64,000 nt of DNA, taken from IMG/VR virus record IMGVR_UViG_3300012209_000006, positions 1 to 64,000 of that record; one strand, written 5' to 3'. Shown piece by piece: positions 3,163-34,573 of this stretch (positions within the stretch are counted from its first letter, which is position 1; each line of letters opens with the position of its first letter). The notes beneath the pieces were generated by a model. That model was not told where the DNA came from, searched no databases, and saw only the letters and a list, made by a program, of their open reading frames with translations. Source of the stretch: a virus. Made by a program: the position numbers and the translations under genes.

Positions 3163-3597
3163 GTGACAACAAAACGTAAAACCCAAATCGTAATTCTCGC
3201 CCTTTCGTTAGGGCTCTCTATTCCTTTCAGTGGGAATCTGTTTGGCGGAAACTCTGGTCTAAGGTTATCTGCCCTACAGGCTTTTTATCAAGAGTACAAC
3301 CAAGATTATTTCGGCAACGCCCTGCCGCAGGATACCATCATCACCGTGGGATCCCTGGGCGACAACATGGGAATGACAGTTCTAGACTCTAGAAACCGTT
3401 GGCACATAACGATCGACAAATACTCAAACCCTATCGAGAAGCAGGCAGAGATGACGCTGGCGCATGAAATGTGTCACGTTAAGTTGAAAGGAACACAATC
3501 CTTAACAACAGACGGAGTCCTCGACGATCACGGAGAGGCGTTCCAGAGCTGCATGCTGAATTTAGCGAAACGCGGAGCCTTTAAAGATCTGTGGTAA
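3163..3597 (+). CDS. Membrane-anchored or exported SprT-like zinc metallopeptidase, 144 aa
   Basis: Residues 1-25 form a basic start followed by a hydrophobic stretch (QIVILALSLGLSIPF), fitting a signal peptide or anchor. Residues 101-105 are HEMCH, the HExxH zinc site of the SprT family, and a later DDHGEAF could supply the third ligand. The body (FYQEYNQDYFGNALP) is typical of SprT-like N-terminal regions. The start is GTG with a GCGAGG site behind the 3110 promoter. A cytosolic paralogue lies at 4314. An exported member is unusual for this family, so its target is open. Confidence 0.7.
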   Translation: MTTKRKTQIVILALSLGLSIPFSGNLFGGNSGLRLSALQAFYQEYNQDYFGNALPQDTIITVGSLGDNMGMTVLDSRNRWHITIDKYSNPIEKQAEMTLAHEMCHVKLKGTQSLTTDGVLDDHGEAFQSCMLNLAKRGAFKDLW

Positions 3598-4112: not shown

Positions 4113-4314
4113 GTTCAACGAGGATCAAGAAGGCGCTGTCGAGCACATCCTAGAGCAGCATCTGGACCTCGTCGAAACGCGCTTCGACGAACTTTTGGAC
4201 GAAGCTGAAAGCGACGGTCAAGAGGTTGGATACGGAGATCTCGACGACGCCCTCTATGACGAGGCTATCGAAGATACCCTGGACGATCTTTTGGATTTGG
4301 TCCCGGAGGCGTGA
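4084..4314 (+). CDS. Very acidic hypothetical protein, 76 aa
   Basis: The start has a CVCG Cys pair. After a His-containing helix (VEHILEQHLD), nearly a third of residues are Asp or Glu. The combination of a C2H2-like beginning and an acidic tail could mimic nucleic acid or bind a basic partner. No function can be assigned. Its TGA overlaps the ATG of the SprT-like gene at 4314. Confidence 0.6.
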   Translation: MFFICVCGDKFNEDQEGAVEHILEQHLDLVETRFDELLDEAESDGQEVGYGDLDDALYDEAIEDTLDDLLDLVPEA

Positions 4315-4685
4315 TGGCTAAATTTAAAAAACTTAAGATCGACAACGATTGGCTACTCAAAGAATTCAAGATGCTTAATGAGCGTTTCTTTGGGTGGGCC
4401 CTTCATCATATGGACGTTGGGTTCGCCGACCTCCCTAAAACCGAGAAAGGAACAAAAATCAACGGCCGATGGAATCCTACTCGGCGTACTATTGAGATAA
4501 GCAAAGAATTCATTCCGCTTGGCACCGACTGCATCACGATAACGCTGCTGCATGAAATGGCGCACGCTCACCTAGAACAGCACCGAGAATATAGGGGCTA
4601 TCCATGCGACGGCGGGCACGGGACCTTGTTCCAGGGAGAGATCTGCCGACTGATGAAGGCCGGCGCATACGACGGGCTGCTATGA
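4314..4685 (+). CDS. SprT-like zinc metallopeptidase, 123 aa
   Basis: Residues 80-84 are HEMAH within LLHEMAHAHLEQH, and a GGHG motif follows near residue 100. Together they form the zinc site expected of SprT/SprT-like proteins. The order (WLLKEFKMLNERFFG, then a beta-rich stretch, then the HExxH helix) matches the family. There is no signal peptide, so it is cytosolic, unlike the paralogue at 3163. Cellular SprT-like proteins act on DNA-protein crosslinks; a similar role here is inference. It is coupled by ATG overlaps to both neighbours. Confidence 0.75.
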   Translation: MAKFKKLKIDNDWLLKEFKMLNERFFGWALHHMDVGFADLPKTEKGTKINGRWNPTRRTIEISKEFIPLGTDCITITLLHEMAHAHLEQHREYRGYPCDGGHGTLFQGEICRLMKAGAYDGLL

Positions 4686-4927
4686 CGTTGAGCGACGCAC
4701 TCATGGTTGCAGAGATTGCGCTGCTCGTCGCGGTCGTTATCCAAGGTGAGTACATTCGATTCTATGAACGCGAAGTACACCGCATTCAGTCCGACCGCGA
4801 AAAGGAAAGAACAACATGGCGAGAACAGAAACGGAAGCAACAAACAAAAAAGCTAGAGTCGAATTCTGGCTCGGCCTCATCCGCACAATCTGTGCCATCA
4901 TCAGTGTCGGTGCCGCATGAAGTTTAA
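4682..4927 (+). CDS. Small single-pass membrane protein with a charged coiled coil, 81 aa
   Basis: The start at 4682 overlaps the previous stop (ATGA). Residues about 6-25 are a hydrophobic segment (ALMVAEIALLVAVVIQG) followed by a long charged region rich in Arg, Glu and Lys and a Ser-rich tail. The plan resembles inner-membrane spanin-type or other bitopic phage proteins, but there is no lysis cassette here. The end overlaps the glycosyltransferase at 4917. No specific function is claimed. Confidence 0.55.
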   Translation: MTLSDALMVAEIALLVAVVIQGEYIRFYEREVHRIQSDREKERTTWREQKRKQQTKKLESNSGSASSAQSVPSSVSVPHEV

Positions 4928-5873
4928 CATTTGCACGAATCTGGATAACGGTGTCGGTCTCGAAAAAGATTATTGGGTGTTGCGCCGGCTCCTCGAGTCT
5001 TGGGGTCACCAAGTTACAGGCGTGCATTACAAAAAGCAGAATCAAATAGAAGAGGCGCCTAAGGTAGATGTCAATATTTTTCTAGAAGTAATTCAGTACG
5101 ATGTTGTGAAAAAAGCCGCCAAGAACTGGCTTATACCGAACCCTGAGTGGTTCGCCAAAGAAGACCATCAGAACGATCTCAGACCGATCACTAAAATTTT
5201 GTGCAAGACCAGAGACGCGGCCAAGCTTTTTTCTGATCTATATAGTACAGTCGAAGTGCAGTATATGGGATTCGAGTCAGAGGATTTGTACGATGAGAGT
5301 GTTCCTCGTCTGCGTAAGTTCCTACACGTCGCCGGCCAATCTCGATACAAGAACTCCCAGGCCGTAGCATACGCCTTCGCCAAGTTCTTTGACGATCCTT
5401 CGGACAAGGATATTCACAAGGAGCTCGTATTCATTGGCGCCTATCCCGAGGAAGTCCAGCTCGCGCGCGACCATAAAAACGTCACGTACATCCAGCACGC
5501 CGCGCCACTCCAGCTGAAGAAGCTGATGAACGAGTGTCTGTTTCATATAATTCCTAGCGGTGCAGAAGGTTGGGGTCACGTTATACACGAAGGGCTGGGC
5601 GTCGGCAACGTGGTGATGACCACAAACTTCCCGCCGATGAATGAGTTCTCTGGTGTGGATCCGGAGCTCCTGATTCCTTATCAGCGTAGCACGCCCGAGC
5701 TCGCAGCCCAACGCGCGTTCGTGGGCGCCATGGAAGTCAAGGCGATGATCGAGAAAGTTTGGGCCTTGACACCAGACCGAATTCATGGTATACAATTAAA
5801 GGCGCGGGAATACTTCCTGCAGCAGCGAGAAGACTTTAGGGCCAAGTTCAAAGCCGTCGTGGAGGCAGCATGA
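4917..5873 (+). CDS. Glycosyltransferase, GT-B (family 1/4-like), 318 aa
   Basis: The C-terminal half has the donor-binding signature of GT-B enzymes: a Ser-Gly-Ala-Glu-Gly-Trp-Gly motif followed by HVIHEGLGVG, equivalent to the E-x7-E region. A VAGQSRYKNS segment matches the inter-domain start of such enzymes. No membrane segment is present. It opens the glycan island and overlaps genes on both sides (4682 gene and the MazG-like gene at 5870). It transfers an activated sugar, but donor and acceptor are unknown. Confidence 0.7.
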   Translation: MKFNICTNLDNGVGLEKDYWVLRRLLESWGHQVTGVHYKKQNQIEEAPKVDVNIFLEVIQYDVVKKAAKNWLIPNPEWFAKEDHQNDLRPITKILCKTRDAAKLFSDLYSTVEVQYMGFESEDLYDESVPRLRKFLHVAGQSRYKNSQAVAYAFAKFFDDPSDKDIHKELVFIGAYPEEVQLARDHKNVTYIQHAAPLQLKKLMNECLFHIIPSGAEGWGHVIHEGLGVGNVVMTTNFPPMNEFSGVDPELLIPYQRSTPELAAQRAFVGAMEVKAMIEKVWALTPDRIHGIQLKAREYFLQQREDFRAKFKAVVEAA

Positions 5874-6262
5874 ATAATCATATTGAATTTTTTCAATATA
5901 GTACAGTCTCGTCTGTAGAGGATCCCGAAAAACAAACGTTCGTTGCGGAGTTTAAATCGCTGCAAGATGCTGCCGGCAAGTGCGAAGAGGCTCACGGCTT
6001 TCGTGAAGGCGTACCCAACTTCGGCGAAAAGCTTGCACTGATGCACGCGGAATTGTCAGAGGCACTGGAATATTTTCGTAAGGGCGACGGTCCCAGTGAT
6101 CACATCCCGGAGTTTAGCGGCGTCGAAGAAGAATTCGCCGACGTGATCATTCGAATGATGAGTTGGGCAGATTACAAACATTTGCGAGTCGCGGAAGCGG
6201 TCGTCGCGAAGATGGCCTTCAACGAATCCAGGCCTTATCGCCACGGCGGGAAGAAATTCTAA
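5870..6262 (+). CDS. MazG-like nucleotide pyrophosphohydrolase, 130 aa
   Basis: The pattern HAELSEALE (residues about 59-67) followed by GVEEEFADVIIRM (about 84-96) is the paired metal-binding ExxE and ExxD signature of the all-alpha NTP pyrophosphatase superfamily. Such enzymes hydrolyse dNTPs or (p)ppGpp-type nucleotides. The gene is translationally coupled to glycosyltransferases on both sides (ATGA and TAATG), which could point to nucleotide-sugar or modified-nucleotide chemistry, though that is inference. Confidence 0.7.
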   Translation: MNNHIEFFQYSTVSSVEDPEKQTFVAEFKSLQDAAGKCEEAHGFREGVPNFGEKLALMHAELSEALEYFRKGDGPSDHIPEFSGVEEEFADVIIRMMSWADYKHLRVAEAVVAKMAFNESRPYRHGGKKF

Positions 6263-7197
6263 TGAGCACAATCGCCGTCCTAGGTAATCATGAGGTTGCC
6301 TTCGCAACCGAACGGGAGTTAGACTGGACACTTGAAGAGAAGCTTGGTCACAACGTGATCCGCCTCCAGGAGAATAAAGTCAGCGCTCTCGATGTTGTGC
6401 AGACTTGCCGAGAACGCGGCGCAAAGCTTTTAATTTTTGTGCATACCCATGGTTGGGATGTACAAGGTGATTTATTCTGGATGCTTAATCAACTTCGTGC
6501 CTCCGGAATCAAAACCGCTTCATTTCATCTCGATAGATTTTGGGGATTAAACAAGGCGGACGGTCGCGAAGATCGCATAGGCGACCACGCTTTCTTTCGA
6601 ACTGATAAATTCTTTTCAGCTGATGGCGGCAATGATGAGAAGTGGGCGTCCCGCGGAATTAACCACGTATGGCTAAAAGCAGGAGTAGTGGAACGCGACT
6701 GTGTTCCGGGAAAACCAAATTTGAAGTTCAACTGCCCTGTAGCTTTCTTTGGGGCTGATGGCTATCATTCCGAGTACAGTTTTCGCGGGATGATGGTTAA
6801 CAGGCTTCGAGAAATTTACGGAACCAATTTCAGGGTATATCAGGGGATCCGTCAGCAGGAACTGAACGACGCCTACGCGACTGTGAAGGTGATCGTGGGA
6901 GACCATTGTTTCGCTGGTCAACCTAGATATTGTTCAGACCGATTGTACGAAACCACAGGCCGGGGCGGATTCTTGATCTATCCCGAGACAGAAGGAATAA
7001 CAGATGAAATTCCAGGATTGGTTACTTACAAACCTCAAGATCTCAATGATCTCATCTCAAAAATTAACTACTGGCTGGACGACGACCACCAATCTGAACG
7101 TATTCGCCGACGCAATGAAGCGCACGAATACGTCAAACGAAATTGTACGTATACCCAGAGAATGATTGAGCTTTTGCGGGCATGTGGTATATCATGA
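6262..7197 (+). CDS. CgeB-like GT-B glycosyltransferase, 311 aa
   Basis: The signature RLYETTGRGGFLIYPETEG near residues 225-245 is typical of the CgeB/Glyco_trans_1_2 group, followed by a Tyr-Lys-Pro-x-Asp-Leu segment that closes the C-terminal domain. The ATG at 6262 overlaps the upstream TAA; longer starts inside the MazG-like gene are unlikely. Its stop overlaps the HNH gene at 7194. The donor is unknown. Confidence 0.65.
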   Translation: MSTIAVLGNHEVAFATERELDWTLEEKLGHNVIRLQENKVSALDVVQTCRERGAKLLIFVHTHGWDVQGDLFWMLNQLRASGIKTASFHLDRFWGLNKADGREDRIGDHAFFRTDKFFSADGGNDEKWASRGINHVWLKAGVVERDCVPGKPNLKFNCPVAFFGADGYHSEYSFRGMMVNRLREIYGTNFRVYQGIRQQELNDAYATVKVIVGDHCFAGQPRYCSDRLYETTGRGGFLIYPETEGITDEIPGLVTYKPQDLNDLISKINYWLDDDHQSERIRRRNEAHEYVKRNCTYTQRMIELLRACGIS

Positions 7198-7790
7198 AGT
7201 TTATAGACTTAAAAGGAAAAACCTTCTCTCGATTAACTGTAATTAAACGACGAGGAGCGTATAAAAATCACGCGTACAAGGATTTCAAATGGTTATGTAA
7301 ATGCGTCTGCGGAAAATTAGTCGTCGCTAGAGGCTCTAGACTTCGTGGCGGTTTAAAAAGATCCTGCGGATGTCTGCATCATGAGTGGGCAAAAACATTA
7401 GGAAAAAACACAAAACCAGGAGTGCCTATCAGAGCTTTATTCACTAGATATAAATACGCGGCGACAAAACGTAAATTATCGTTTGTGCTATCTTTTGAGC
7501 AGTTTTTGCAGATAATTAAAAGGCCTTGTTTTTACTGCGGTGCCGAAAATAGTAATCATTTTCATACTCCCGAGGGCCCCGAAGAATTACGATATAATGG
7601 AATAGACCGAATGAATAATAGAGAAGGATATACGTATTTAAATAGTGTTCCATGCTGCGGCGTGTGTAACAGGATGAAATCTGCATTTACAGTAGCGCAA
7701 TTCTTTAGTTTCATTGAACGAATTTATGGAACGTTGTTGGCCAAAACGAAAATAGACAATCTTACCGTGGCCGGACATTGCTGCAAATAA
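7194..7790 (+). CDS. HNH homing endonuclease with N-terminal zinc-ribbon DNA-binding domain, 198 aa
   Basis: The first 60 residues (GKTFSRLTVIKR, then WLCKCVCGK, then a basic segment ending SCGCL) match the N-terminal DNA-binding domain common to phage HNH proteins. The HNH core carries CFYCG, a GIDRMNN metal-site strand and PCCGVCNRMKS. The ATG overlaps the previous stop (ATGA). The base composition is clearly richer in A and T than the neighbouring glycosyltransferases, consistent with a recent insertion. A decayed relative of its C-terminal part lies at 46118. Confidence 0.8.
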   Translation: MKFIDLKGKTFSRLTVIKRRGAYKNHAYKDFKWLCKCVCGKLVVARGSRLRGGLKRSCGCLHHEWAKTLGKNTKPGVPIRALFTRYKYAATKRKLSFVLSFEQFLQIIKRPCFYCGAENSNHFHTPEGPEELRYNGIDRMNNREGYTYLNSVPCCGVCNRMKSAFTVAQFFSFIERIYGTLLAKTKIDNLTVAGHCCK

Positions 7791-7800
7791 TGGAGGTAAA

Positions 7801-7932
7801 ATGAGCACAACAATTTACACAGAATGTGAAAAGCATCCTAACACTCTTGTCCAAGAAGGAGAGCTTTGTCCTAACTGTGCGCATGAGCGCGCGCACGAGA
7901 CCACGCGTTTCCCAGAGGGCGCCGAACTGTAA
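7801..7932 (+). CDS. Small zinc-ribbon-like protein, 43 aa
   Basis: A short frame starting at 7801 behind a TGGAGG site and ending in a TAATG overlap with the next gene. It contains a TECEKH and a CPNCAHERAH segment, a plausible Cys/His zinc site. No family is recognised, but coupling and the strong ribosome-binding site make it credible. Confidence 0.6.
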   Translation: MSTTIYTECEKHPNTLVQEGELCPNCAHERAHETTRFPEGAEL

Positions 7933-8828
7933 TGCGTGATATCGTTCTAATTCCCACTTATTTGAGGCCTGAGTATTTGCAACTATGCCTCGAGCGTATC
8001 GCCAACGCAAAAGCAACCCCGACGCCGAAAGAGTTTTGGATCTGCGCAGACCGCCGGCCCAATGATGAGCATCGAAATAAAATGGTCATTGAGTGGCAGT
8101 TCGATGTTCTTAACGCCTGGAAGGGCGCGCTGCCGTTGAAATATTTTCAAGTACCCGAGCACAATTTCAACGGAAATAGTTTCAATGTCCTCGAGTCCTA
8201 CAAGAGAGCCTACAATGAACCTGATGTTCGTTACATCTATCTTATCGAAGACGACGTCCTGGTTACGCCGGACTTTTTCAAGTGGCACGAAGCTATCGCC
8301 GAATCCGAACCCGACGCCATGTGTTCCATCGCCTACCGCTGTTCTCGAAATCATGAGGCGCGAACAGACGTTACCGAGCCTGGAGCTTATTTCACTAGCT
8401 CTCGTGACTATGCGTCGATCGGAGTTCGTTGGTCTCGCGCCTTCCTCGAGCCCTTACTTTTACATGCGCGGCTGCCCTATTACTCAAACCAAGAAGAGTA
8501 CGTCCGAACCACTTTTCCGGGCAACAGATTCGCCGGAGACTTCTCTGAGCAAGACGGCCTTATCATGCGCGTCATGTGGGAGCAGAAGTGGTTCACCACA
8601 TGGCCTTACGTGCCGCGTTGCTACCACATGGGTTGGTACGGTTATCACCGCCCCAACGGTAAAAGACCTGACGGATTTCTCGAACATAAGGTGGACGGAT
8701 TACGAAACACAATTTCGAACGCCGAAAGATTGAAGCAAGTGGCGCCGGACTTTGGGGACATCGAACCTTATCCTACTGAGCCCATGCCACCGTACGACAA
8801 GCTTGAGAAATTGCAGCACTTCGAATAG
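7932..8828 (+). CDS. GT-A (family 2-like) glycosyltransferase, 298 aa
   Basis: The start DIVLIPTYLRPEYLQLCL is the nucleotide-binding beginning of GT-A enzymes. YLIEDDVLVTPDFF near residues 95-110 carries the acidic DxD-type motif for the metal-bound sugar nucleotide. A WPYVPRCYHMGWYGYHR segment is shared with the paralogue at 14860 and in part with the frameshifted copy at 13094. It has no membrane helices. It sits in the middle of the glycan operon. Confidence 0.75.
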   Translation: MRDIVLIPTYLRPEYLQLCLERIANAKATPTPKEFWICADRRPNDEHRNKMVIEWQFDVLNAWKGALPLKYFQVPEHNFNGNSFNVLESYKRAYNEPDVRYIYLIEDDVLVTPDFFKWHEAIAESEPDAMCSIAYRCSRNHEARTDVTEPGAYFTSSRDYASIGVRWSRAFLEPLLLHARLPYYSNQEEYVRTTFPGNRFAGDFSEQDGLIMRVMWEQKWFTTWPYVPRCYHMGWYGYHRPNGKRPDGFLEHKVDGLRNTISNAERLKQVAPDFGDIEPYPTEPMPPYDKLEKLQHFE

Positions 8829-8836
8829 GAGAAGAC

Positions 8837-9817
8837 ATGAGAATTCTGATTACAGGCAGCGAAGGCGTTCTAGGAAGCACCCTCAAGAAAGAACTACGCC
8901 TGCGCGGTCACAGCGTCTATGGCTGCGACCTAGTTCATGCGTCTGACGATAAGGTGATGCGTACAGACATCGCGGAGCGCCGCCAGATTGATCGCATATT
9001 CGAGTGGAGCCGTCCAGACGTGGTCTATCACTTCGCTGCGGAGTTCGGCCGCATGAACGGTCAGGATTACTATGAGCAGTTGTGGAAGACCAACTGCATT
9101 GGCACCCGCAACGTGATCGAGGCCTGCATCAAGAGTAAAGCCAAGATGGTCTTCGCATCTTCGTCCGAGGCCTACGGTATGGCCGACGACTACGCCCCCA
9201 AGGGGGAAGACTTCCAGGAGTCTTGGCTGGACAAGTACGCCCCTCAGTTCCACAACGAGTACGCCCTCACCAAATACACGAACGAACGCCAGATAACGAT
9301 GGCCGCGCGCAACGAAAATCTGGATGCCATCATCCTGCGCTTCTTCAATGCCTACGGCCCCGGTGAGCATTACAGCCCGTACCGTAGCGTGGTGTGTTTA
9401 TTCACGTATCGCCTGCTCAAAGGCTTGCCGATCACGGTGTACAAGAACTACTACCGTACCCACATGTTCATCAACGATTGGTGCCAAGGGGTTGCCAACG
9501 TGGCGGATCAGGAAACACTGAATACGCTGGCGTTCAATAGGTACTGGCAAGGCGGTGGCGGGACGCCGTGGGTGCCAGTGTTTAACATTGGCGGTGAAGA
9601 ATACGAATCCGTCGAGGCCCTCAAAGATAAGATCGTTGCACTGATCGGTGGAACCAAATCTGAGATCACATACCTCGAGGCCGAGAAGGCCAACGTGATT
9701 TCGAAAAAGCCCAACAACAGTTTGGCCAAGGCGTGGTTGGGCCACAATCCGACTACGAAGCTGGACCAGGGGCTCCCGCCAACGATTGAGTGGATACGCG
9801 AGGAATACGGTTTGTGA
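8837..9817 (+). CDS. NAD-dependent epimerase/dehydratase of the extended SDR type, 326 aa
   Basis: The protein begins with a Rossmann GxxGxxG motif (TGSEGVLGS), has the FASSSEAYG substrate segment and a YALTK catalytic Tyr-Lys pair, and then RFFNAYGPGE, all hallmarks of UDP-sugar 4-epimerase and 4,6-dehydratase enzymes. It likely remodels a nucleotide sugar for the adjacent transferases. Exact substrate cannot be read from sequence. Its stop overlaps the GTG of the next transferase. Confidence 0.8.
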   Translation: MRILITGSEGVLGSTLKKELRLRGHSVYGCDLVHASDDKVMRTDIAERRQIDRIFEWSRPDVVYHFAAEFGRMNGQDYYEQLWKTNCIGTRNVIEACIKSKAKMVFASSSEAYGMADDYAPKGEDFQESWLDKYAPQFHNEYALTKYTNERQITMAARNENLDAIILRFFNAYGPGEHYSPYRSVVCLFTYRLLKGLPITVYKNYYRTHMFINDWCQGVANVADQETLNTLAFNRYWQGGGGTPWVPVFNIGGEEYESVEALKDKIVALIGGTKSEITYLEAEKANVISKKPNNSLAKAWLGHNPTTKLDQGLPPTIEWIREEYGL

Positions 9818-10569
9818 AGCCAACCATCAGCATCGTAATGACTGCATACAAACGCCACCTGCTTCTCCAGAACACGCTGCGCTCCATCAAGATGCAGACG
9901 CGGCAGCCGGACGAGATCATCGTGGTCGAAGACGGCTTCGATTACGGACTGACGCAGAAGGTGTGCATGGACGCCATCAACGACGAGAAGTTGCCGGTCA
10001 AATATTTGTGCCGTAGGAACAGACCGAACCTGGGTTACTCGAACCCCGCGATTCCCAAGAACGTTGGGATCAAACGCGCCACAGGGGACATTCTGATCAT
10101 CCAGTGCGCCGAGGTCATGTACACAAAGCCAGACGACATCGCCAACCTAGTTCGCCCACTAGAGGAGACCACAAACGTTTCCTCGATCGCAACCGTCTCC
10201 GCGCGCGATGCGAACGGGGATTTCCAGGAGTGGTACGCGGGCCCCAAGCGTGCGCCTCTGTGGTTCCTGGACTTTTGTCAGGCTGTCCGCCGACAAGACG
10301 TCCTGGTGATCGGCGGATTCGACGAGCAGTACGAGGGCTACGGTTTCGACGATGATGACTTTGCGCTGCGACTACAGGCCAGTGGCGTTCAGTACCGTTG
10401 GGCCCTGGACGTAGAGTGCCACCACCAGTGGCACACGATTTACGACAAGGATACGACACTCAGTGTATTCGGTCGGCGTAGATACGACAAGATGAAGGAA
10501 GAAGTGGACGCGGGCAAGAGGCCCCCGGTCGTAAATGCAGGACGGCCGTGGGGCGAAATAGATTCGTAG
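9814..10569 (+). CDS. GT-A (family 2) glycosyltransferase, 251 aa
   Basis: SIVMTAYKRHLLLQNTLRS starts a classic GT2 fold. IIVVEDGFD and a later GGFDEQYEGYGFDDDDFALR segment, the galactosyltransferase-type C-terminal motif, complete it. The GTG at 9814 overlaps the previous TGA and is preferred over an upstream in-frame ATG that would lie within the epimerase gene. It is a paralogue of the gene at 12221. Confidence 0.75.
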   Translation: MKPTISIVMTAYKRHLLLQNTLRSIKMQTRQPDEIIVVEDGFDYGLTQKVCMDAINDEKLPVKYLCRRNRPNLGYSNPAIPKNVGIKRATGDILIIQCAEVMYTKPDDIANLVRPLEETTNVSSIATVSARDANGDFQEWYAGPKRAPLWFLDFCQAVRRQDVLVIGGFDEQYEGYGFDDDDFALRLQASGVQYRWALDVECHHQWHTIYDKDTTLSVFGRRRYDKMKEEVDAGKRPPVVNAGRPWGEIDS

Positions 10570-10598
10570 TTGACACTGATCGTAGTTTTTGATATGCT
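10570..10598 (+). promoter_or_regulatory. Sigma70-type promoter
   Basis: TTGACA at 10570-10575 and TATGCT at 10593-10598 are 17 nt apart. They sit right at the stop of the transferase and ahead of the collagen-like gene at 10630. A degenerate duplicate of this promoter and leader lies at 12950. Confidence 0.65.
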
Positions 10599-10629
10599 TT
10601 CGTAGTAGTCAAACTATTTCGGAGGAAAA

Positions 10630-11598
10630 ATGAAAAAATTCTTTCTTGGTTTGATGCTCGGTTTGTTGTTTTGTGCATCGGGGTTCTCGGCGGTTGCGCC
10701 GACAATCGTTAGTGCGTCTGCGAATTCGTCCCTAACGCAGCTGACGGTCAACGGATCAGGCTTCAGTCCTAATAATACGACACCCACTGTCGTGCTTGGC
10801 GGCATAACTCTTTCAATTGTTTCTGCGTCCGATACTACGGTCGTTGCGGCCTTGCCGGCAAACGAACCATCCGGCAGCTACGCACTGTCCGTAACCGAAA
10901 CGTCCACCGGATCAAAGACCACAACGTTTGGTGTAACCATCGGTGCGGTTGGGCCGCAGGGGCCTGCAGGTCCACAAGGAAACACAGGACCGACCGGACC
11001 ACAAGGGCCAAGCGTGTTTGCAGGCACTTGGAGTAGTTCAGGCGTTTATAGCGTCGGCCAAGAAGTTTTGCGGCCTTCGGACGGCGGAAGCCCTGGTCCA
11101 TTCTTTAATCTGACAGGCAGCAATAGCGGAGATCCAGTTACGGACACAACGAATTGGATCTATTGTTGCGGTATAGCACACCCGGTAACGCAGGTGTTTC
11201 CTATACTTAATGCGGCTTTCGGATTGTCGGTTTCAACTACGCATCAGTGCATTTCTGTGATTCCTAATTCAAGCATAGAAGTTGTGACGGTTCTTGGAGC
11301 CTGTCCAGCGGCTATGAACTTCTTGAGTGGAAACACTGGTTACACAAAACTGAGCGTAGAAATGAGTGATGTAGGAGCCGCGACCGTCGAAATCATTTTG
11401 GTGGATGTAAAGCCTAATAGCCCTACGCAAGCTTCCGGAAGTTGCCTCATCACCGCGCCAGCTGACAGTTGTTCCATTAATCTGGGTATAACAATCTCTA
11501 GCGGTGATTGGCTTGAATTAACTTTCTCTTTACCAACACCGCAAAATTTGCCTGGATCCACCTTGTCTGTACCTTTCGTTGTTTGGGAAATACAATGA
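10630..11598 (+). CDS. Secreted collagen-like protein with an IPT/TIG-type domain, 322 aa
   Basis: Residues 1-20 are a signal peptide (MKKFFLGLMLGLLF and then ASGFSA). An immunoglobulin-like IPT/TIG pattern follows (PTIVSASANSS, VNGSGFSPNN, SGSYALSV), and then a short Gly-x-y run (GPQGPAGPQGNTGPTGPQGP) near residues 112-131. The remaining 190 residues are Ser/Thr/Gly-rich and resemble a surface-exposed or adhesin head. It has its own promoter and lies inside the glycosyltransferase island, so it may be a glycan-carrying protein; that link is inference. Confidence 0.65.
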   Translation: MKKFFLGLMLGLLFCASGFSAVAPTIVSASANSSLTQLTVNGSGFSPNNTTPTVVLGGITLSIVSASDTTVVAALPANEPSGSYALSVTETSTGSKTTTFGVTIGAVGPQGPAGPQGNTGPTGPQGPSVFAGTWSSSGVYSVGQEVLRPSDGGSPGPFFNLTGSNSGDPVTDTTNWIYCCGIAHPVTQVFPILNAAFGLSVSTTHQCISVIPNSSIEVVTVLGACPAAMNFLSGNTGYTKLSVEMSDVGAATVEIILVDVKPNSPTQASGSCLITAPADSCSINLGITISSGDWLELTFSLPTPQNLPGSTLSVPFVVWEIQ

Positions 11599-12224
11599 GT
11601 CAACTAACCTGGAAGTGGAACGGTATCGAGGGGGCGTCGTTACAAGACGCCCTCGTCTTTGCTGCTACGCATAAAAAGAATGATCTGGAGTTCCCCCTCC
11701 ACGCTTACCTTGAGATAGGGGTAGATGGCGGCGAGTCTTTGAAAACTGTTCTCGACATCGCCCGGCCTACCCACGTCGCGTTAGTCGATATTTGGGATCC
11801 TAGATACTGTAATCACGGTTACGGAGACGAAAGGCATATTAGGCGAATTTTTTCTGAACGTGGACTCGATCCCGGCATTGCTCAGTTTGTTAACGGTGAT
11901 TCTCACATTACCATTAAGACACAACTACGCGGAAGAGCGTTTGAACTCATAACGGTCGATGGGGACCACACCGACGCAGGTTTGCTCGCAGATTTAACGG
12001 ACAGTTGGCCACTACTCCGCGCAAAAGGTTTGATGGTCGTTGATGACATAGGGCACATAGAATACCCAGGATTAAAAGGCGTTTTTGATAGATGGTTGGC
12101 GTCAACACCGGAAGCGGAGCTTATTCCAGAAATAGATAACGGGGTGGAGATTACACCTAATCCACCAGGAGGCAAGTGGTTACCAGGCTACGCCGCAACC
12201 ACTAGAGTGGTACGAAGGAAATGA
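11595..12224 (+). CDS. Class I SAM-dependent methyltransferase (Methyltransf_24-like), 209 aa
   Basis: YLEIGVDGGES is the SAM-binding glycine loop; VALVDIWDPR follows as the acidic strand 2, and ITVDGDHTDAGLLADL plus VVDDIGHIEYPG match the Methyltransf_24 group often seen in carbohydrate clusters. The ATG overlaps the collagen-like gene's stop and the end overlaps the next transferase, so this is one operon. It probably methylates a sugar or glycan intermediate. Confidence 0.7.
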   Translation: MSQLTWKWNGIEGASLQDALVFAATHKKNDLEFPLHAYLEIGVDGGESLKTVLDIARPTHVALVDIWDPRYCNHGYGDERHIRRIFSERGLDPGIAQFVNGDSHITIKTQLRGRAFELITVDGDHTDAGLLADLTDSWPLLRAKGLMVVDDIGHIEYPGLKGVFDRWLASTPEAELIPEIDNGVEITPNPPGGKWLPGYAATTRVVRRK

Positions 12225-12949
12225 TCCCAGACGTCTCCATCATTCTCTCCTGCTACAAACGCGGCAGACAACTGCGTAAGACCCTTGAGAGCATCGAGTC
12301 GCAAGACATGAAACCCGAGATCATTGTCGTAGAAGACGGCGACGACGGGATCACGCAGACGATCGCGCGGGAGTTCGGTGCCAAGTTCTTTCGCAAGAAG
12401 CGTGCGGACCTGCCTGCATTCCAGAACCCGTCGCGCGTCCACAACATTGGGATTAGACAAGCCACAGGAAATGTGGTAATCTTACAGGGTGGGGAAGTCA
12501 AATATGAAACGAAGACTAAAGCAGTTTCAAGACTGGTGGAGATGGCTGCTTCCGGGCCATATTACGTTTCCCCGTTGGTGGCTTCCCGGGACCGCGAAGG
12601 AAAGTTTCTAGAGTGGTATTCGCACCCGTCTGACGGGTCGCGCGCAGGCTGGATCATAAATTTCTGCCTCGCCGTACAGCGAAAGTATCTTATGGCAATT
12701 GGTGGATTTGAGGAGTCGTACACCGGCTACGGGTTTGAAGACAGTCAACTCATGTTCTGTCTTGAGCAATCCAAGCTTAAAGCCAAATACGATGAGACCA
12801 TTGTGGCTACGCACCAGTGGCACAGCCGAGACAATTACAATTTTACGTATCCGGAAGGGCAGGCTCAGTTCGACACGTTCGTTGCCAACGTAATCGCCGG
12901 CCGGATTCCGCCGCAGTCTAATCTCGGAAAAGAATGGGGGAGGCTGTAG
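12221..12949 (+). CDS. GT-A (family 2) glycosyltransferase, 242 aa
   Basis: The beginning DVSIILSCYKRGRQLRKTLE and EIIVVEDGDDG match GT2 enzymes, and GGFEESYTGYGFEDSQLMF matches the C-terminal galactosyltransferase-type motif. It is clearly paralogous to the enzyme at 9814 along its whole length. It is coupled by ATGA to the methyltransferase. Confidence 0.75.
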   Translation: MIPDVSIILSCYKRGRQLRKTLESIESQDMKPEIIVVEDGDDGITQTIAREFGAKFFRKKRADLPAFQNPSRVHNIGIRQATGNVVILQGGEVKYETKTKAVSRLVEMAASGPYYVSPLVASRDREGKFLEWYSHPSDGSRAGWIINFCLAVQRKYLMAIGGFEESYTGYGFEDSQLMFCLEQSKLKAKYDETIVATHQWHSRDNYNFTYPEGQAQFDTFVANVIAGRIPPQSNLGKEWGRL

Positions 12950-13082
12950 TTGACATCGGGTACGTTTTGTGAGATCATGAATTAGGTAGTCAAATTCTTT
13001 CGGAGGAAAAATGAAAAAATTCTTTCTCGGTTTGATGCTTAGCCCAAGTCCTGGACTTGGTGTATTTATTTTGTCGTTTTGA
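12950..13082 (+). pseudogene. Decayed duplicate of the 10570-10660 promoter, leader and signal peptide
   Basis: TTGACA at 12950, a TAGTCAAA segment, TTTCGGAGGAAAAATG and the first nine codons (MKKFFLGLM) repeat the start of the collagen-like gene at 10630. After residue 10 the frame diverges and stops at 13082 after 23 codons. The -10 box is eroded (GATCAT). This looks like a partial segmental duplication whose coding part was replaced by the following transferase. Confidence 0.7.
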
Positions 13083-13093
13083 AGCAGCTAAAA

Positions 13094-13920
13094 ATGGATC
13101 TCCTTCTTGTCCCAACGTACAATCGTCCAGAGTTCCTGCATCTGTGCCTGGAGCGGATTCTTTCCGCTCCTGGCTCAGACACTAAAGACCTATGGATCGC
13201 AGAAGATAGGCATCTGTCTGATCGATTTCATGTGGACACTGCTGTTCAGCGCGAGACCGCGGAAGTCGTCGCGCGGGTAAAAGCGCAACGAAACGTTCGG
13301 CACATACAGCGCATCCCGCACAATCATTTCAATAATAGTTTTAACGTTCTAGAAGGATACAAAGAGGCACTCGTACACGGTTACGAGTACGTATACCTGA
13401 TTGAAGATGATGTAATGGTTTTGCCTGATTTTTTTTTTTTGAATGGCACAACTGCGCTCAAAAAGAATCTGTGTTTGTGTCGTGCGCCGGCAATTACAAT
13501 CAATCACTTGATGTTGTTGACCTGTTGGATATAAATGCTAAGGATTCGAAGAAACTCGTATTTTCAGATTCTGCCTATTCATCGGCCGCAGGTGTTTGTT
13601 TTTCACGCGCGTCTATAGAACTGATTGTTCAAAAAGTAGCTACGCGTGCAGTTCTTGAGTGGATTGATCGTGATCACCACTCCCAACAGGACAAAGAGAT
13701 TCAACGACTTATGACGGCGGTTGGCGGCAGATCCGTTTGGCCAGTTGTTCCGCGGAGCCATCACGAAGGTTGGTATGGAGCGGGGTGTACAATCGCAACG
13801 CCGCCTAAAGGATCTTTGAGTGAACGGATAGAATATATCCGAGAAGTTTTAAACGGCAAGCGGCAGATAAAGTGCGAACCGAAGTGGGGCCACGACATAA
13901 CGGTGATTGGAGAACTGTAA
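13094..13920 (+). pseudogene. GT-A glycosyltransferase split by a frameshift in a 12-T run
   Basis: The first frame (13094 to 13534, with a possible TTG start at 13079) reads LLVPTYNRPEFLHLCLERI and YLIEDDVMVLPDFF, matching 7932 and 14860. The second frame (from about 13441 to 13920) reads EWHN, then VFVSCAGNYNQSLD and WPVVPRSHHEGWYGAG, the rest of the same family. The break falls exactly at T 13429-13440. One added or two removed T would restore a full enzyme of about 275 aa. It may be truly broken, slippage-controlled, or a read error. Confidence 0.75.
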
Positions 13921-14609
13921 TGGGAATGAAACACGATCCAAAAGCATACGAACCACAGGTCTTCGAGCATCTGGCCAAGATTCTGAAGCCAGGGGATTTG
14001 ACGTACGACGTCGGAGCCTATGACGGCATAACGTCGGTGCGGCTCGCGCAAATAGTGGGCGGCGAGAACGTCGTGCTCATCGAGTCCGGCGAAATGAACT
14101 GGGCCACGATTCGGGCCTACTGGCACTCCTTTGGTCTTCATACGCCGCGCCTGACCTATTCTGGGTTTGTGAGCGATGAAGATCGCTTGGGCGCGTTCCC
14201 GGCCGGTTTGATGAATCTTGGCGGATGGCCACACGAGGCTGATGAGTTTCCGATCGCGCAGTACGAGGAAGGCCTTAATTTCAGGAATTTGGACGCGCGC
14301 CATTTGGCGGCCGAGATCATGGCTCGCCCCTGGTTCACTCTGGATACCGTGGCTCGGTTCGCGGGCGACCCCAAGGGGATCATCATGGACATTGAGGGCG
14401 CCGAACTGCTGGCACTCCGCGGCGCGGAACAGACGCTTCGTCGCAGCCATCCGTTCGTCTGGGTTAGTATCCACGCGCAACTATTGAAAAATTTCTGTCA
14501 TCACGAGGATATGGTTCGCAAATATATGCAGTGGGTAGGATACGAGGGAACGTTGCTATACGAAGATCAAGAGCAGCATTGGTTCTTTTCACCCGCGGGA
14601 AAAGAATGA
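13920..14609 (+). CDS. FkbM-family methyltransferase, 229 aa
   Basis: LTYDVGAYDGITSVRLAQIV gives the SAM-binding loop near residues 27-45, with VVLIES as strand 2. IIMDIEGAELLALRGAEQTL is the hallmark FkbM segment (DIEGxE). FkbM enzymes O-methylate sugars and related metabolites and are common in polysaccharide clusters. The ATG at 13920 overlaps the previous TAA, and the stop overlaps the next gene. Confidence 0.75.
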   Translation: MGMKHDPKAYEPQVFEHLAKILKPGDLTYDVGAYDGITSVRLAQIVGGENVVLIESGEMNWATIRAYWHSFGLHTPRLTYSGFVSDEDRLGAFPAGLMNLGGWPHEADEFPIAQYEEGLNFRNLDARHLAAEIMARPWFTLDTVARFAGDPKGIIMDIEGAELLALRGAEQTLRRSHPFVWVSIHAQLLKNFCHHEDMVRKYMQWVGYEGTLLYEDQEQHWFFSPAGKE

Positions 14610-14863
14610 AACCGGGGATCTACGCAGTTACATCTTGGAATGGAAAAGATGGAGTTCTTCTACGAGCAGATGGAGAATTCTTGGCTGTGACTAAGACTGA
14701 TCTTCCAGACATTTTTAGAGGCACTCTCCGCGTGGGCGAGAAAGTGGCAATCAAAACAATAATTGTTATGGAGCCTTTAGAAAGAATGATGTCTGCAAAA
14801 CAGCGAAATTTCATTGATGCCGAGAACGCGCGTCGAAGAATCTACGGAGCGAAATCACTATGA
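14606..14863 (+). CDS. Hypothetical protein, 85 aa
   Basis: A small basic protein, beta-rich in its first half (GIYAVTSWNGKDGVLLR) with a helical tail. It is ATGA-coupled to the FkbM gene and overlaps the next transferase by 4 nt. Not recognised; its place suggests a part in the glycan operon. Confidence 0.55.
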   Translation: MKPGIYAVTSWNGKDGVLLRADGEFLAVTKTDLPDIFRGTLRVGEKVAIKTIIVMEPLERMMSAKQRNFIDAENARRRIYGAKSL

Positions 14864-15717
14864 GGGACATTGTAATTATTCCTACTTTCGATCGACCAGA
14901 ATTTTTATGGGTTTGTCTGGAAAATTTAAGTAAAGCTCGCGGCATAGAGTCTAAAGAGATCTGGCTTCGCGAAGACGTGCACGCCGACAAACCGAAGCCA
15001 TTCACGATTGAGATGGAGTTTTTGGCCACCATACGGGAAGCAGAAAGGGTTTTTAGGAATCAGGTATTCTACGCAGCCCGTGCGCCTCATACCACGTACG
15101 GAAACAGTTACAATGTTTTGTCCGCCCTTTCCGAGGCGTCTATGACGGACGCGAATCTCGTCTATCTGATTGAAGACGATGTTCTAATAACAGAAGATTT
15201 CTTTGAATGGAACGAAGCTGTCCATAACACTTTCCGCCCGTGGGTGTCCTGCGCCGGCCGTCTGAATCGTAGCCTGAACTTTGCTATGAATGGTCCCGAA
15301 GCAATCGATGAGTCCATCAAAGATACGAATGCGTGTCACGCATCTATCACAGCCTACAACTCGTGGGCCACATGTTTCTCTCGCACCGCTTTGAACGACA
15401 TAGCCGATGTGTATCGTTTCGATAAATTCGGTCCCGGCCTCGAGCAAGACATTCTGATTCAGAATATCATTCGTCGCGAGAAGATGACAACGATCTGGCC
15501 TTACGTACCACGAGCCTACCACATGGGTTGGTACAGCTATCATCGTGAAGGCATGCGATTCTACGGAACGTTGGAAGAGAAAGTCAAAGAGCTTCGTGCT
15601 ACGGTTACGAATCCTGAAAAGATAAAAACGATGGCCAGCATCCAACAGATTGATCCGTTTCCTAAGAAACAGCATGAGTCGGCCGCAGAGTTATATTTGA
15701 GGACTAAATGCCAGTAA
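14860..15717 (+). CDS. GT-A (family 2-like) glycosyltransferase, 285 aa
   Basis: DIVIIPTFDRPEFLWVCLEN and YLIEDDVLITEDFFEWNEA correspond closely to the gene at 7932. WPYVPRAYHMGWYSYHREG is nearly the same as in 7932. The intact EDFFEWNEA here shows what the frameshifted copy at 13094 should encode. It is the last transferase of the island; an HNH gene overlaps its final codons. Confidence 0.75.
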   Translation: MRDIVIIPTFDRPEFLWVCLENLSKARGIESKEIWLREDVHADKPKPFTIEMEFLATIREAERVFRNQVFYAARAPHTTYGNSYNVLSALSEASMTDANLVYLIEDDVLITEDFFEWNEAVHNTFRPWVSCAGRLNRSLNFAMNGPEAIDESIKDTNACHASITAYNSWATCFSRTALNDIADVYRFDKFGPGLEQDILIQNIIRREKMTTIWPYVPRAYHMGWYSYHREGMRFYGTLEEKVKELRATVTNPEKIKTMASIQQIDPFPKKQHESAAELYLRTKCQ

Positions 15718-16274: not shown

Positions 16275-16375
16275 CTACGTATAAATCATTGAATCATATA
16301 CACTTAGGCTATGAAGGGCGAATCGGCACCAAGAAGCACCGGAAAATGTTGCGAAAACTGAAGAACGTGACGTAG
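16275..16375 (+). pseudogene. C-terminal fragment of another EndoVII-like HNH gene
   Basis: In one frame the sequence reads HLGYEGRIGTKKHRKMLRKL before a TAG at 16373. This matches the end of the HNH protein directly upstream (GRIGTKKQRMAIRK). It has no start and no catalytic core. It suggests successive insertions at one site. The first bases of the 31-bp element overlap its stop codon. Confidence 0.6.
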
Positions 16376-16396
16376 TTTTAAAGACATAATGGAGGG
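16366..16396 (+). promoter_or_regulatory. 31-bp conserved element, copy 2 of 4
   Basis: Identical to the copies at 2139, 34564 and 37391. Here the terminal TGGAGGG directly serves as the ribosome-binding site for the ATG at 16401. The element therefore supplies both the presumed transcription signal and the translation signal. Confidence 0.75.
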
Positions 16397-17153: not shown

Positions 17154-18797
17154 ATGTCACAAGACAAGATTACGCAGACGGTCGAAGTCTTTGAGAAGCG
17201 TGGCGGCAATATTAGAGCCACTGCGGCAGAGCTAGGAGTTTCGCGCAGCACTGTTCGTCGGCGCCTGACTCCCCTCGGAAAGATGGAGAAACCTCTCGCT
17301 GGCGGAACTGTCGGCGGCACGCCTACCGTCGTAAGGGCGCTCCCGAAGAAGGGTCAAATCAAGCGTTACATTCTTACTTCTGCGCAGAATAACACGTACG
17401 TTCATGACGGAGTTCTGGCGAACCTCGAGGCTTTGGCGAAGCACTACTCGGCCGAGATCATCGTCGGAAGCTACACGTACAATCAAAACAATTATGGCAA
17501 GTTGAGCGTGAAACGCGGAAAAGACAAAGACGCACAGAAGCAACTGTGGTACGATTCTAAGATCGAAAACTACATCAAGGACAATCGCATTCAATTGGCC
17601 GACGGCCTCGTGTGGTGTGGCGAGTACAACGCTCTCCCGACCAACGTTAATCCTCTGGCTGGTCTAGAGGCCTATACCGGCCGGAAGTCGTCGATCTTCC
17701 CCCACGCCAAGTTGGCAATGCGCAGTATCCCAACCATGCAAGGTGAAGGCGTCAAACTGAATTACACCACTGGTACAGTGACTCAGCGCAACTACATTCA
17801 GAAACGTGAAGGTGTGATCGCAGAGTTTCATCACATTTACGGAGCCCTTCTGGTTGAAGTCAACTCCGACGGTAACTGGTGGGTTCGTCAACTGAATCAA
17901 GACGAAGGTACCGGAACCCTGCAAGATCTCAACGTGTTGGTTAAGGCTGGTGAAGTAGTCTCCACCGTCGAGCGCGTCGAGGCTATTACTCACGGCGACC
18001 TTCACGGCACTTTCGCAGACCCAGACGTGGTTAAGACGTCCTTGAATATGGTGGATGATTTACAGCCTAAGTATCAGTTCCTTCACGATGTAATGGAAGG
18101 CGCGGCGGTAAATCCTCATCAGCGCAAGTATCAGACGGCGCACGAGAAGTTTCACACTTGGCTTCGAGGATACCACAAGCTGGACAACGAATTGATCGAC
18201 ACCGCAAAGTTACTCGAAGCATACGATCGTCCGTTCGCCCAGACGGTAATCGTAGACGCCAATCATGACGACGTGTGGCTGAAACGGTGGCTCCGCGAGT
18301 ATGACTACAGAAAAGATCCGCCGAACACCGAAGTCTTTTTGAAATTGCAGACGTATCTGTATAATCAGATTCGCAACGGAGTTACCGACGAGCAATCGCG
18401 GGCTCGCAAAGCTAACCCCAAGATGGTCCGCGATATCGGCGTACTTGAATACGCATTCCGAGAAGTGGCTGGCTACAAGGCCCCCGCAAAGTTTCTTCTA
18501 GCGGATGAGTCGTTCAAAACGTGCGATGGTAAAATCGAGAACGGCATGCACGGTCATTTCGGGCCCAACGGAAGGTTCGGCACTCCTGAGAACCTTTCCA
18601 AGATGGCGCGCAAGGCCAACACAGCACATACGCATAGCACAGGCATTTGGAACGGGCTCTACGTTGCGGGCACCAGCAGCAAGCTTCGGTGGGATTACGC
18701 TAAAGGTCCAAGCGCTTGGAGCCACAGCCACGTTGTTACATACCCGAACGGGAAGAGATCGATCATCACAATCTACGCAGGAAAATGGAGAGCATAA
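17154..18797 (+). CDS. Possible T5 A1-like host-takeover protein with an N-terminal HTH, 547 aa
   Basis: Residues 1-40 are a Fis/HTH_8-like helix-turn-helix (GGNIRATAAELGVSRSTVRR). The rest has metallophosphoesterase-like elements: ITHGDLHGTFADPD near residue 280, VIVDANHDDVWLKRWL near 365, and a late His-rich MHGHFGPNGR and TAHTHSTG. HTH plus calcineurin-like phosphoesterase is the plan of phage T5 A1-type proteins, which act in host DNA degradation and shut-off. The assignment rests on remembered motif order, not a search. It follows the membrane protein by 12 nt behind GGAGAG. Confidence 0.5.
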   Translation: MSQDKITQTVEVFEKRGGNIRATAAELGVSRSTVRRRLTPLGKMEKPLAGGTVGGTPTVVRALPKKGQIKRYILTSAQNNTYVHDGVLANLEALAKHYSAEIIVGSYTYNQNNYGKLSVKRGKDKDAQKQLWYDSKIENYIKDNRIQLADGLVWCGEYNALPTNVNPLAGLEAYTGRKSSIFPHAKLAMRSIPTMQGEGVKLNYTTGTVTQRNYIQKREGVIAEFHHIYGALLVEVNSDGNWWVRQLNQDEGTGTLQDLNVLVKAGEVVSTVERVEAITHGDLHGTFADPDVVKTSLNMVDDLQPKYQFLHDVMEGAAVNPHQRKYQTAHEKFHTWLRGYHKLDNELIDTAKLLEAYDRPFAQTVIVDANHDDVWLKRWLREYDYRKDPPNTEVFLKLQTYLYNQIRNGVTDEQSRARKANPKMVRDIGVLEYAFREVAGYKAPAKFLLADESFKTCDGKIENGMHGHFGPNGRFGTPENLSKMARKANTAHTHSTGIWNGLYVAGTSSKLRWDYAKGPSAWSHSHVVTYPNGKRSIITIYAGKWRA

Positions 18798-21005: not shown

Positions 21006-21317
21006 ATGGATGTTTTTATTCACATTAGGGGATTCCTTCGCGTGCCGATCGGGGAAGCGACTTTCAAATCGCACAAGTTCTCTGTTCGGCACGACGACTC
21101 CGAAAAAATCGCGGAGTTCATCAACGACGCGATGATGGAGATCGTTAACATGAAAGGTATGATCACCCCCAAAGATGAAAACAAATCGACCAAGGGAATC
21201 GAAGGCTTCAACAACATAAAGTTCTGGCATATAGATAACTTCGCTCATTTCGAGATCGAGACGAAGATTCTAACGGCTCAGATTCCCGACCCCAAGAGAG
21301 TGGAGCTACTGCAATGA
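21006..21317 (+). CDS. Hypothetical protein, 103 aa
   Basis: A small alpha/beta protein without recognised motifs. The ATG follows GAGAGGGACC. Its stop overlaps the ATG of the ClpP-like gene by 4 nt, so they are probably made together. Confidence 0.6.
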   Translation: MDVFIHIRGFLRVPIGEATFKSHKFSVRHDDSEKIAEFINDAMMEIVNMKGMITPKDENKSTKGIEGFNNIKFWHIDNFAHFEIETKILTAQIPDPKRVELLQ

Positions 21318-21814
21318 TCGAACCATTTGTCATCACAGGCGAGATCGACGCCAAGATCGCCAATAACTTCTTCACGTTGGCCGGCGCGGGTCTCATCACG
21401 GATGTTGTGATAAGCTCCGTGGGCGGAGACATTGGCCTGACGTTCGGTATGTTCGACGTGATCCGAATGCTAAGCATCAACACGCATGTCGTGGGTATCG
21501 CGCAGTCTGCGGCCGCCGTATTGCTACAGGCGGGCAAGCTACGCACCATGACGGACGCCAGCCTACTCCAGTTCCACGCGCCGGAAGAGCACGTCACTGA
21601 CGCGCAGTTTCGGCTCTATACTCAGCTTGTCGAGATGGTCGCGCAGCGTACTGGTTTGCACATAACCGAAGCTCACGATCTGTTCGACAACAAGTTCATC
21701 ACCGCCAACAAGGCCCAAGAGTTGGGCCTTATTGACGAGATTGCAACTCCGGCTCCTACGGACCCGAGAGATACTGACATCATAAGGTGGGTGAGAAATG
21801 GGCGAAGTAATTAG
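21314..21814 (+). CDS. ClpP/SppA-like serine protease, 166 aa
   Basis: VISSVGGDIGLTFGMFDVIR near residues 32-51 is the ClpP oxyanion segment. GIAQSAAAVLLQAG places the nucleophile Ser65, and SLLQFHAPEE places the general base His88; AQELGLIDEI near the end corresponds to the family's terminal helix. It is shorter than bacterial ClpP (about 200 aa). It is not next to the capsid genes, which argues against a prohead protease. A Clp-type AAA+ protein at 35464 is a possible partner. Confidence 0.7.
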   Translation: MIEPFVITGEIDAKIANNFFTLAGAGLITDVVISSVGGDIGLTFGMFDVIRMLSINTHVVGIAQSAAAVLLQAGKLRTMTDASLLQFHAPEEHVTDAQFRLYTQLVEMVAQRTGLHITEAHDLFDNKFITANKAQELGLIDEIATPAPTDPRDTDIIRWVRNGRSN

Positions 21815-34010: not shown

Positions 34011-34573
34011 TGTTGGTTCGATGCAAGACTCAAGATTGCCCCCACGCAATAACTTTACCCGATGATCGGGCATCAAAAAGTTCTGTTTATGTTTGCTCGG
34101 AATGTTCTCGAATTGATTCCTCCGAGGATCTTCTTCATTTTCAGAATTATGCATTTGATCCGGAGCTAGGAACGCGCAAAACCCCTCGGCGAGGAGAAGT
34201 AGAAGCGCACAACGCCATAAACGGAAAAGGATCTCATTTTAGTCGGAAGAGCTCGGGTTTTTCTGTCATACAAGTAAAGAAAGAAAATAGAACAACGCCA
34301 ACACCCGAATGGGCCAAAACGAATGAAGGCATTCAAAAAATTTTATTAACAGCTTTTCCGAAACTTCATGTTAACGCTTTGCAACGAAAACGGGCCGGTA
34401 GATGGGCACAAATCATTCAATTGTATTTTCGCGAAGGTTTGGTTTTTTCGGTGGTTGCCGAGGAATTGTTAGAGAAACCAAGAGCAATAGAGATGGTAAT
34501 TCGTAGCATAATCTGGACATCAAAAGGTATGCGGGCTAACGGATCAGGGCCAAGAACCAGAATCGTGACGTAG
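34010..34573 (+). CDS. Zinc-finger plus helix-turn-helix protein, candidate regulator, 187 aa
   Basis: Residues 1-35 hold CKTQDCPH and VCSECSR, a zinc ribbon. Residues about 125-175 (AGRWAQIIQLYFREGLVFSVVAEELL then RAIEMVIRSIIWTSKG) look like a sigma region 4-type or other helix-turn-helix. Codon use is A/T-rich relative to neighbours. The 31-bp element copy 3 begins over its last codons. A role in reading that element is an attractive guess without direct evidence. Confidence 0.5.
   Translation: MLVRCKTQDCPHAITLPDDRASKSSVYVCSECSRIDSSEDLLHFQNYAFDPELGTRKTPRRGEVEAHNAINGKGSHFSRKSSGFSVIQVKKENRTTPTPEWAKTNEGIQKILLTAFPKLHVNALQRKRAGRWAQIIQLYFREGLVFSVVAEELLEKPRAIEMVIRSIIWTSKGMRANGSGPRTRIVT

Follow-up and report, generated by a model that had tools for sequence, protein, structure and literature searches.

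Phage-encoded glycosylation of virions is already known. For mycobacteriophage Che8 and the cluster O phages (Corndog), virion glycosylation has been reported by Freeman et al. (2023), as cited in PMC11256854 and PMC11600133; in the account of this work given in PMC11600133, cluster O phages carry three tandem glycosyltransferases (GTs) and an O-methyltransferase, and glycans were reported on capsid and tail tube. In chlorovirus PBCV-1, GTs and a GT/O-methyltransferase protein are specified by the virus itself, which puts glycans on its major capsid protein (PMC4691112). This paper will deal with a glycan island in IMG/VR virus record IMGVR_UViG_3300012209_000006, of which bases 1-64000 of 92,832 bp are here called the window. 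The island (4917-15717, about 11 kb) codes for six intact GTs, two of the GT-B and four of the GT-A type, for one disrupted GT-A, and for an epimerase and two methyltransferases. On balance, we lean towards the interpretation that it is a modular glycan-assembly locus whose enzymes act in the cytoplasm of the host and attach an oligosaccharide containing methylated sugars to the virion proteins of the phage itself.

Like the mycobacteriophages, as far as the citing articles describe them, the locus combines phage-encoded GTs with a second sugar-modifying enzyme, which is the O-methyltransferase in cluster O. However, the island differs in its larger number of GTs, in having an epimerase and a second methyltransferase, and in the exchange of its middle genes, and its two conserved GTs gave no tblastn match in the mycobacteriophages, which makes common descent less likely but leaves the analogy unaffected. 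With chlorovirus PBCV-1 the island shares virus-encoded GTs and a methyltransferase function, whereas PBCV-1 is a eukaryotic virus with other genes and another glycan.

Homologues were identified in Streptomyces phages. The GT-B gene at the left border of the island, designated GTB1 (4917-5873), and a GT-A gene, designated GTA_a (7932-8828), each match the same seven of 50,697 phage records by tblastn, all of them Streptomyces phages (Kela, Frankenweenie, JustBecause, Satis, Kradal, EhyElimayoE and Quantum), with 30-32% identity. In the two genomes that were read, the homologous GT-B and GT13-like GT-A genes (the gp48-gp49 pair and its equivalents) are adjacent and are located upstream of the major tail protein, with a distance of three genes. 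Unlike the island, the Streptomyces phages have only this two-gene core annotated as GT, under the mere name glycosyltransferase, with neither an epimerase nor a methyltransferase beside it.

The earlier note on this DNA had proposed to look for the same cluster in related phages, and the set indeed recurs, in differing combinations, in dozens of other soil phages. In IMG/VR, 26 loci with GTA_a were identified, 23 of which also contain GTB1; of the remaining three, two lie on contigs that end within about 1 kb of the gene. A single-sequence scan of the viral_contigs collection with the 7932 product (GTA_a) retrieved nothing, and the relatives were recovered with alignments. The reciprocal search from GTB1 resulted in 52 loci, with a GTA_a relative in 30. 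When the five weakest GTB1 loci (L106-L110; locus numbers are those of this analysis) were left out and the remaining 47 were merged at 80% identity, 35 lineages were obtained, of which 24 contain GTA_a, and 34 contain one or more of the following families: GTA_a, Methyltransf_24, GTB2, FkbM, the 9814-type GT and the epimerase. None of the island glycan families was found in 294 kb of control phage loci. Since sugar genes cluster in general, the specific link of GTB1 to GTA_a is the stronger part of this result. In L036-L040, GTB1 and GTA_a have a homologue of the island methyltransferase 11595 between them, and 13 of the 35 lineages have one near GTB1. No match to this methyltransferase was obtained in cultured phages. 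In L041, L043, L044 and L051, GTB1 and GTB2 are fused in one open reading frame.

The neighbourhood of the pair differs among these loci. The major tail protein is next but one to it in L036-L040 (phrog_807, 7e-59), the terminase is beside it in L041-L044 and L048, and the portal is beside it in L034 and L100. In L035 the pair is beside distal tail and tail-fibre genes, and in L046 it precedes the tape measure gene. In total, at least five separate lineages of the GT-A tree have homologues of the pair that adjoin a tail, portal or terminase gene; several neighbours of the pair have no family match. In 84,980 species genomes of bacteria and archaea, scanned with peptide patterns from a seven-row GTA_a alignment, a single GTA_a relative was identified (L058:4209-5126, on a contig of a metagenome-assembled genome of the Verrucomicrobiia), and no GTB1 relative was found on this contig. 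This suggests that the GTA_a family is almost exclusively viral.

The folds of the two conserved enzymes were predicted. The GTA_a model has a predicted local distance difference test score (pLDDT) of 93.6 and a predicted template modelling (TM) score of 0.92, and ranks 1-11 of a Foldseek search against the PDB were all GnT-I, POMGnT1 and GnT-II (E values 1e-12 to 2e-9), at a moderate TM-score of 0.48-0.56 by query length and 12-16% identity. A search of the PDB with the 7932 sequence alone gave nothing useful; a profile was required, and that of 20 GTA_a homologues matched POMGnT1 (4.5e-8), chondroitin synthase (1.6e-6), GnT-I (1e-5) and GnT-II (1.8e-5). The nearest solved relatives by profile (4.5e-8) and by fold (1e-12) are thus of GT13/GT16, which are GlcNAc-transferases of eukaryotic glycoproteins and build sugar chains on proteins of animals. 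Among the 20 homologues E106-D107-D108, H232 and G234 are invariant and EQD 206-208 is near-invariant; the EDD motif, which resembles a metal site, is presumably the counterpart of the GT13 metal-binding site. In contrast to GT13/GT16, GTA_a has no membrane anchor. Profile and model support the prediction of a GT13/GT16-like family, and at the moderate TM-scores a sister family of GT13 is just as plausible as membership. For GTB1 (model pLDDT 91.6), the top Foldseek match was PimA (2gej, GT4; E 4.1e-11, TM-score 0.77), a GT of virus NY2A (3oy2) was among the fold matches, and E217 and E225 (E-x7-E) are invariant in 15 homologues. GTB1 is therefore predicted, from fold and motif, to be a GT4-type GT-B with a PimA-like retaining fold. 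The structure-based search that had been proposed for donor specificity thus gave fold relatives for both enzymes.

The variable part of the locus became visible in two sister phages, L033 (69,279-bp contig) and L032 (93,931-bp contig). Both have GTB1 at the left border and, at the right border, GTA_a, a second GT-A gene designated GTA_c (14860-15717 in the window), then genes for an endonuclease VII and for a membrane-anchored-looking protein, and finally an A1-like gene. The middle of L032 consists of two TylF-type methyltransferases, a methyltransferase-like open reading frame, a GT2, sugar-binding DXD (GT32-like) genes and a nuclease, and that of L033 of Methyltransf_24 and Methyltransf_23 genes and one GT32-like gene. 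While GTA_a and GTA_c are adjacent in both sisters, they are separated in the window by a 6-kb block (8829-14859), which is inserted relative to the sisters. In the tree, GTA_a groups with the GT-A that comes first in the sisters (support 97/94), and GTA_c with the one that comes second in L032 and L033 (100/100). The kept borders, the differing middle and the tree grouping indicate an old frame with a changing filling.

All genes of the island, and all other sites described in it, are on the plus strand, and most genes overlap end to start. GTB1 matches PF13692 (GT group 1, 5.9e-6). It is followed by a MazG-like nucleotide pyrophosphatase (5870-6262; phrog_3301, 2.3e-29) and by GTB2, a second GT-B (6262-7197; PF13524 Glyco_trans_1_2, 5.2e-10; phrog_28745, 8.7e-32). 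GTA_a matches the Pfam GT2 family with 0.0016, under the Pfam cut-off, and was assigned by profile and fold. The NAD-dependent sugar-nucleotide epimerase/dehydratase (8837-9817; Epimerase PF01370, 8.6e-38) has as nearest solved structures 8w3u and 9ar1, described as 'dTDP-glucose 4,6-dehydratase related protein' (2e-55). GTA_b1 (9814-10569; PF00535, 3.7e-10; PF02709, 1.5e-7) is a GT-A of the GT2/galactosyltransferase-7C-like type, and its paralogue GTA_b2 (12221-12949; PF00535, 1.9e-10) is 37% identical to it. The two methyltransferases are of the Methyltransf_24 type (11595-12224; PF13578, 3.4e-13) and of the FkbM type (13920-14609; PF05050, 2.6e-7; phrog_8156, 3.2e-9). A small protein of 85 amino acids (14606-14863), with an open reading frame overlapping both neighbours, precedes GTA_c, which is 37% identical to GTA_a and matches Glyco_tranf_2_3 with 1.2e-4, under the cut-off.

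The earlier note had listed two GT-B and five GT-A enzymes, three of them related to 7932 and two to 9814, together with an epimerase and two methyltransferases; a MazG-like enzyme and an exported protein of the collagen-like type completed the list. All of these were recovered with Pfam and PHROGs, and the relation of 9814 to 12221 was borne out; however, the GT-A gene at 13079, which matches 7932 as 14860 does, is frameshifted and not intact. The list had also passed over an HNH/endonuclease-VII-like nuclease inside the island (7182-7790; phrog_374, 3e-18; phrog_1035, 1.2e-14; GC content 38.6%) and an endonuclease VII gene at 15708, directly after it. The former is probably a mobile gene outside glycan synthesis. 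More endonuclease VII or HNH genes were identified at window positions 19866, 37523, 48323 and 49577, suggesting much gene traffic.

The disrupted GT-A gene of the 7932 family (13079-13920; 44% identity to 7932) is split into the frames 13079-13534 and 13471-13920. The reading frame changes at a run of 12 T (13429-13440), which is the longest homopolymer of the record, and the family motifs are kept in both halves. Three readings are conceivable: the gene may be a pseudogene, the tract may be phase-variable, or the assembly may be wrong at this point. The run was rejected as proof of phase variation, being only modestly unusual in length (0.08 runs of at least 12 expected; 12 reached in three of 60 simulated genomes). 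A recent duplication as the origin of the gene was also rejected, since the tree shows it on a long branch, as a divergent paralogue. Upstream of it, an orphan 5' end of the collagen-like gene is present as the second copy of a 54-nt repeat (12986-13039), which opens a short reading frame. The frameshifted GT, the orphan repeat copy, the nuclease genes and the uneven GC content suggest gene traffic, and one might regard the island as a decaying set of host-derived sugar genes without coherent function. This is very unlikely, because the remaining GT genes, which overlap end to start, are unbroken and have kept their catalytic motifs, and because the pair recurs over many phage lineages while it is nearly absent from bacterial genomes, with the one relative from the peptide-pattern scan.

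The first copy of the 54-nt repeat (10605-10658, 94% identical to the second) covers the ribosome-binding site and the signal-peptide start of the exported protein with TIG domain and collagen repeats (10630-11598; TIG 2.6e-6, weak collagen match, hydrophobic N-terminus). A sigma70-type promoter-like site (TTGACA-N17-TATGCT, 10570-10598; chance expectation 0.01) is located before this gene. No relative of the protein was found in viral_contigs, and its gene is missing at the locus in the sister phages. In L034, an exported-looking protein with a TIG-like stretch but no family match is encoded near the GT module (L034:18117-19142), in a layout like that of the window collagen-like protein. That the collagen-like gene lies within the island and has a promoter-like site to itself would be in line with a glycosylation of non-virion targets, either the exported protein itself or small metabolites made during infection. 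We consider this improbable, since the GT pair is conserved where the collagen-like gene is not.

With regard to acceptor, donors, order of steps, expression and function of the island, we infer the following. The retaining GT-B GTB1 would put the first or an early sugar on a virion protein, or on a sugar already present there. The GT13-like GTA_a and GTA_c and the GTs encoded at 6262, 9814 and 12221 would then extend or branch the chain with host sugar nucleotides, one of which might be reshaped by the epimerase/dehydratase 8837, and the methyltransferases 11595 and 13920 would methylate sugars of the chain. With the frame kept (the GT-B on the left and the two GT13-like GT-A on the right) and the middle exchanged between sisters, each phage would show a different glycan. 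A virion target is favoured because homologues of the pair adjoin tail, portal or terminase genes, and because of the mycobacteriophage precedent of GTs with an O-methyltransferase. A bolder, and rather doubtful, version of this scheme is a protein-glycan pathway like that of eukaryotes, in which the GT-B would set the first sugar, possibly mannose, and the GT13-like enzyme would add N-acetylglucosamine as POMGnT1 or GnT-I do; the middle would be exchanged like a serotype cassette, and the T run would switch one GT, giving variable coats.

Several points speak against a decoration of the virion. In the window phage and two close relatives, the island is located beside the A1-like DNA-transfer gene; it does not adjoin structural genes, and the terminase is about 23 kb away. 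In L082 and L089 the pair lies near primase and polymerase genes instead. The proximity of the pair to virion genes is a correlation, and such genes make up a large part of every phage genome. The exported collagen-like protein points to the envelope, and one of the island GTs is disrupted. The mycobacteriophage GTs with established virion targets are no detectable sequence relatives by tblastn.

Since the island is not beside structural genes here, modification of host glycans is the main rival, although of distinctly lower probability. Here, the soluble GTs and the methyltransferases would alter the lipopolysaccharide core or a lipid-linked glycan of the host, mask receptors and exclude superinfecting phages, with the collagen-like protein at the surface. 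GTs of the lipopolysaccharide core can be soluble and cytoplasmic, which counts for this rival, as do the exported collagen-like protein within the island and the location of the island by the A1-like gene, away from structural genes. In addition, the GT clusters of cyanophage jumbo phages have been interpreted in terms of a diversified outer polysaccharide (PMC7824862). However, the pair lies by virion genes in the five or more other lineages of the GT-A tree, and no membrane segments were found in the island GTs. The record contains no match to GtrA (PF04138), a Wzx-type flippase (PF01943), WecA/MraY (PF00953) or a lipid-carrier sugar transferase (PF02397), while the positive controls worked, and no membrane GT was found in it. 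A complete pathway for a host-surface polysaccharide is disfavoured on these grounds.

The third target that had been proposed, besides virion proteins and the host surface, is the DNA of the phage. Other phage GTs add a sugar to a modified base of phage DNA (Pyle 2024, as cited in PMC12619734), which would shield the DNA from restriction enzymes, and the presence of the MazG-like enzyme is consistent with such a role. However, the statement that no DNA base-modifying gene is visible near the island holds for the entire record as far as the thymidylate-synthase/hydroxymethylase family (PF00303) and C5 cytosine methylases (PF00145) are concerned: neither gave a match, and both positive controls worked. 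The searches of the record for TET/JBP and for a single-subunit RNA polymerase were also without a match but carry no weight, because the positive control of the former was silent too and the latter had none. With the two best-known kinds of modified-base gene missing from the record, and with a GT-A family that resembles protein-glycan enzymes, DNA glycosylation is the least probable of the explanations considered. Of the three targets, virion proteins are thus favoured, and DNA and a complete host-surface polysaccharide pathway are disfavoured.

The ends of the record are identical over 123 bp, so that the genome looks complete; its GC content is 50.7%. Among cultured phages, Tunturiibacter phage Tunturi_3, a podovirus with an Acidobacteriota host (PMC11924767), has the closest terminase (30.8% identity); no GT island is annotated in this phage. 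Metagenomic relatives are closer, with 18 loci having terminases of 63-76% identity. From these terminase relatives, an Acidobacteriota host may be guessed for the window phage. A tRNA-Asn gene is present at 56957-57032, and a tRNA-Asn is also carried by Tunturi 3 (PMC11924767). The A1-like protein (17154-18797; phrog_1745, 1.9e-158) resembles the DNA-transfer protein of T5 and has an N-terminal helix-turn-helix, and the nearest cultured terminase of this phage is podoviral.

Genes for a Clp protease-like and a ClpX/AAA-like protein are present at 21314-21814 and 35464-36702, and two SprT-like metalloprotease genes at 3163-3597 and 4311-4685, two relatives of which are also found in L032. A tail-fibre-like protein with collagen repeats (53310-54179) is followed by a trypsin-like protease (54216-55013). 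In L005:5397-6398 (record 68397-69398), the C-terminal part, from CVDLGTLILMGDNTEKR to HGYISNG, has by eye the look of an intein-like Hint domain. The 29-nt sequence GTGACGTAGTTTTAAAGACATAATGGAGG occurs in four identical plus-strand copies before genes (2140-2168, 16367-16395, 34565-34593 and 37392-37420; chance expectation 0), and is suggestive of a phage-specific promoter combined with a ribosome-binding site. A promoter common to the phage group was not supported, since the repeat is absent from those loci of the relatives that were scanned.

As far as the tools show, four points are new, namely the conserved GT-B/GT13-like pair, its spread among soil phages, the swapping of middle genes within one locus, and the relation of a viral GT-A family to GT13/GT16; no paper on this pair was found in a limited search of open-access text. 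If decoration of the virion holds true, scattered annotations as 'phage glycosyltransferase' would turn into a defined system with a two-enzyme core, an exchangeable middle and a near-exclusively viral GT-A family. Since the core pair is present in seven cultured Streptomyces phages, laboratory strains for a test of this idea are already at hand. If the virion glycans vary among sister phages, this would bear on host binding, the avoidance of decoys and recognition by antibodies.

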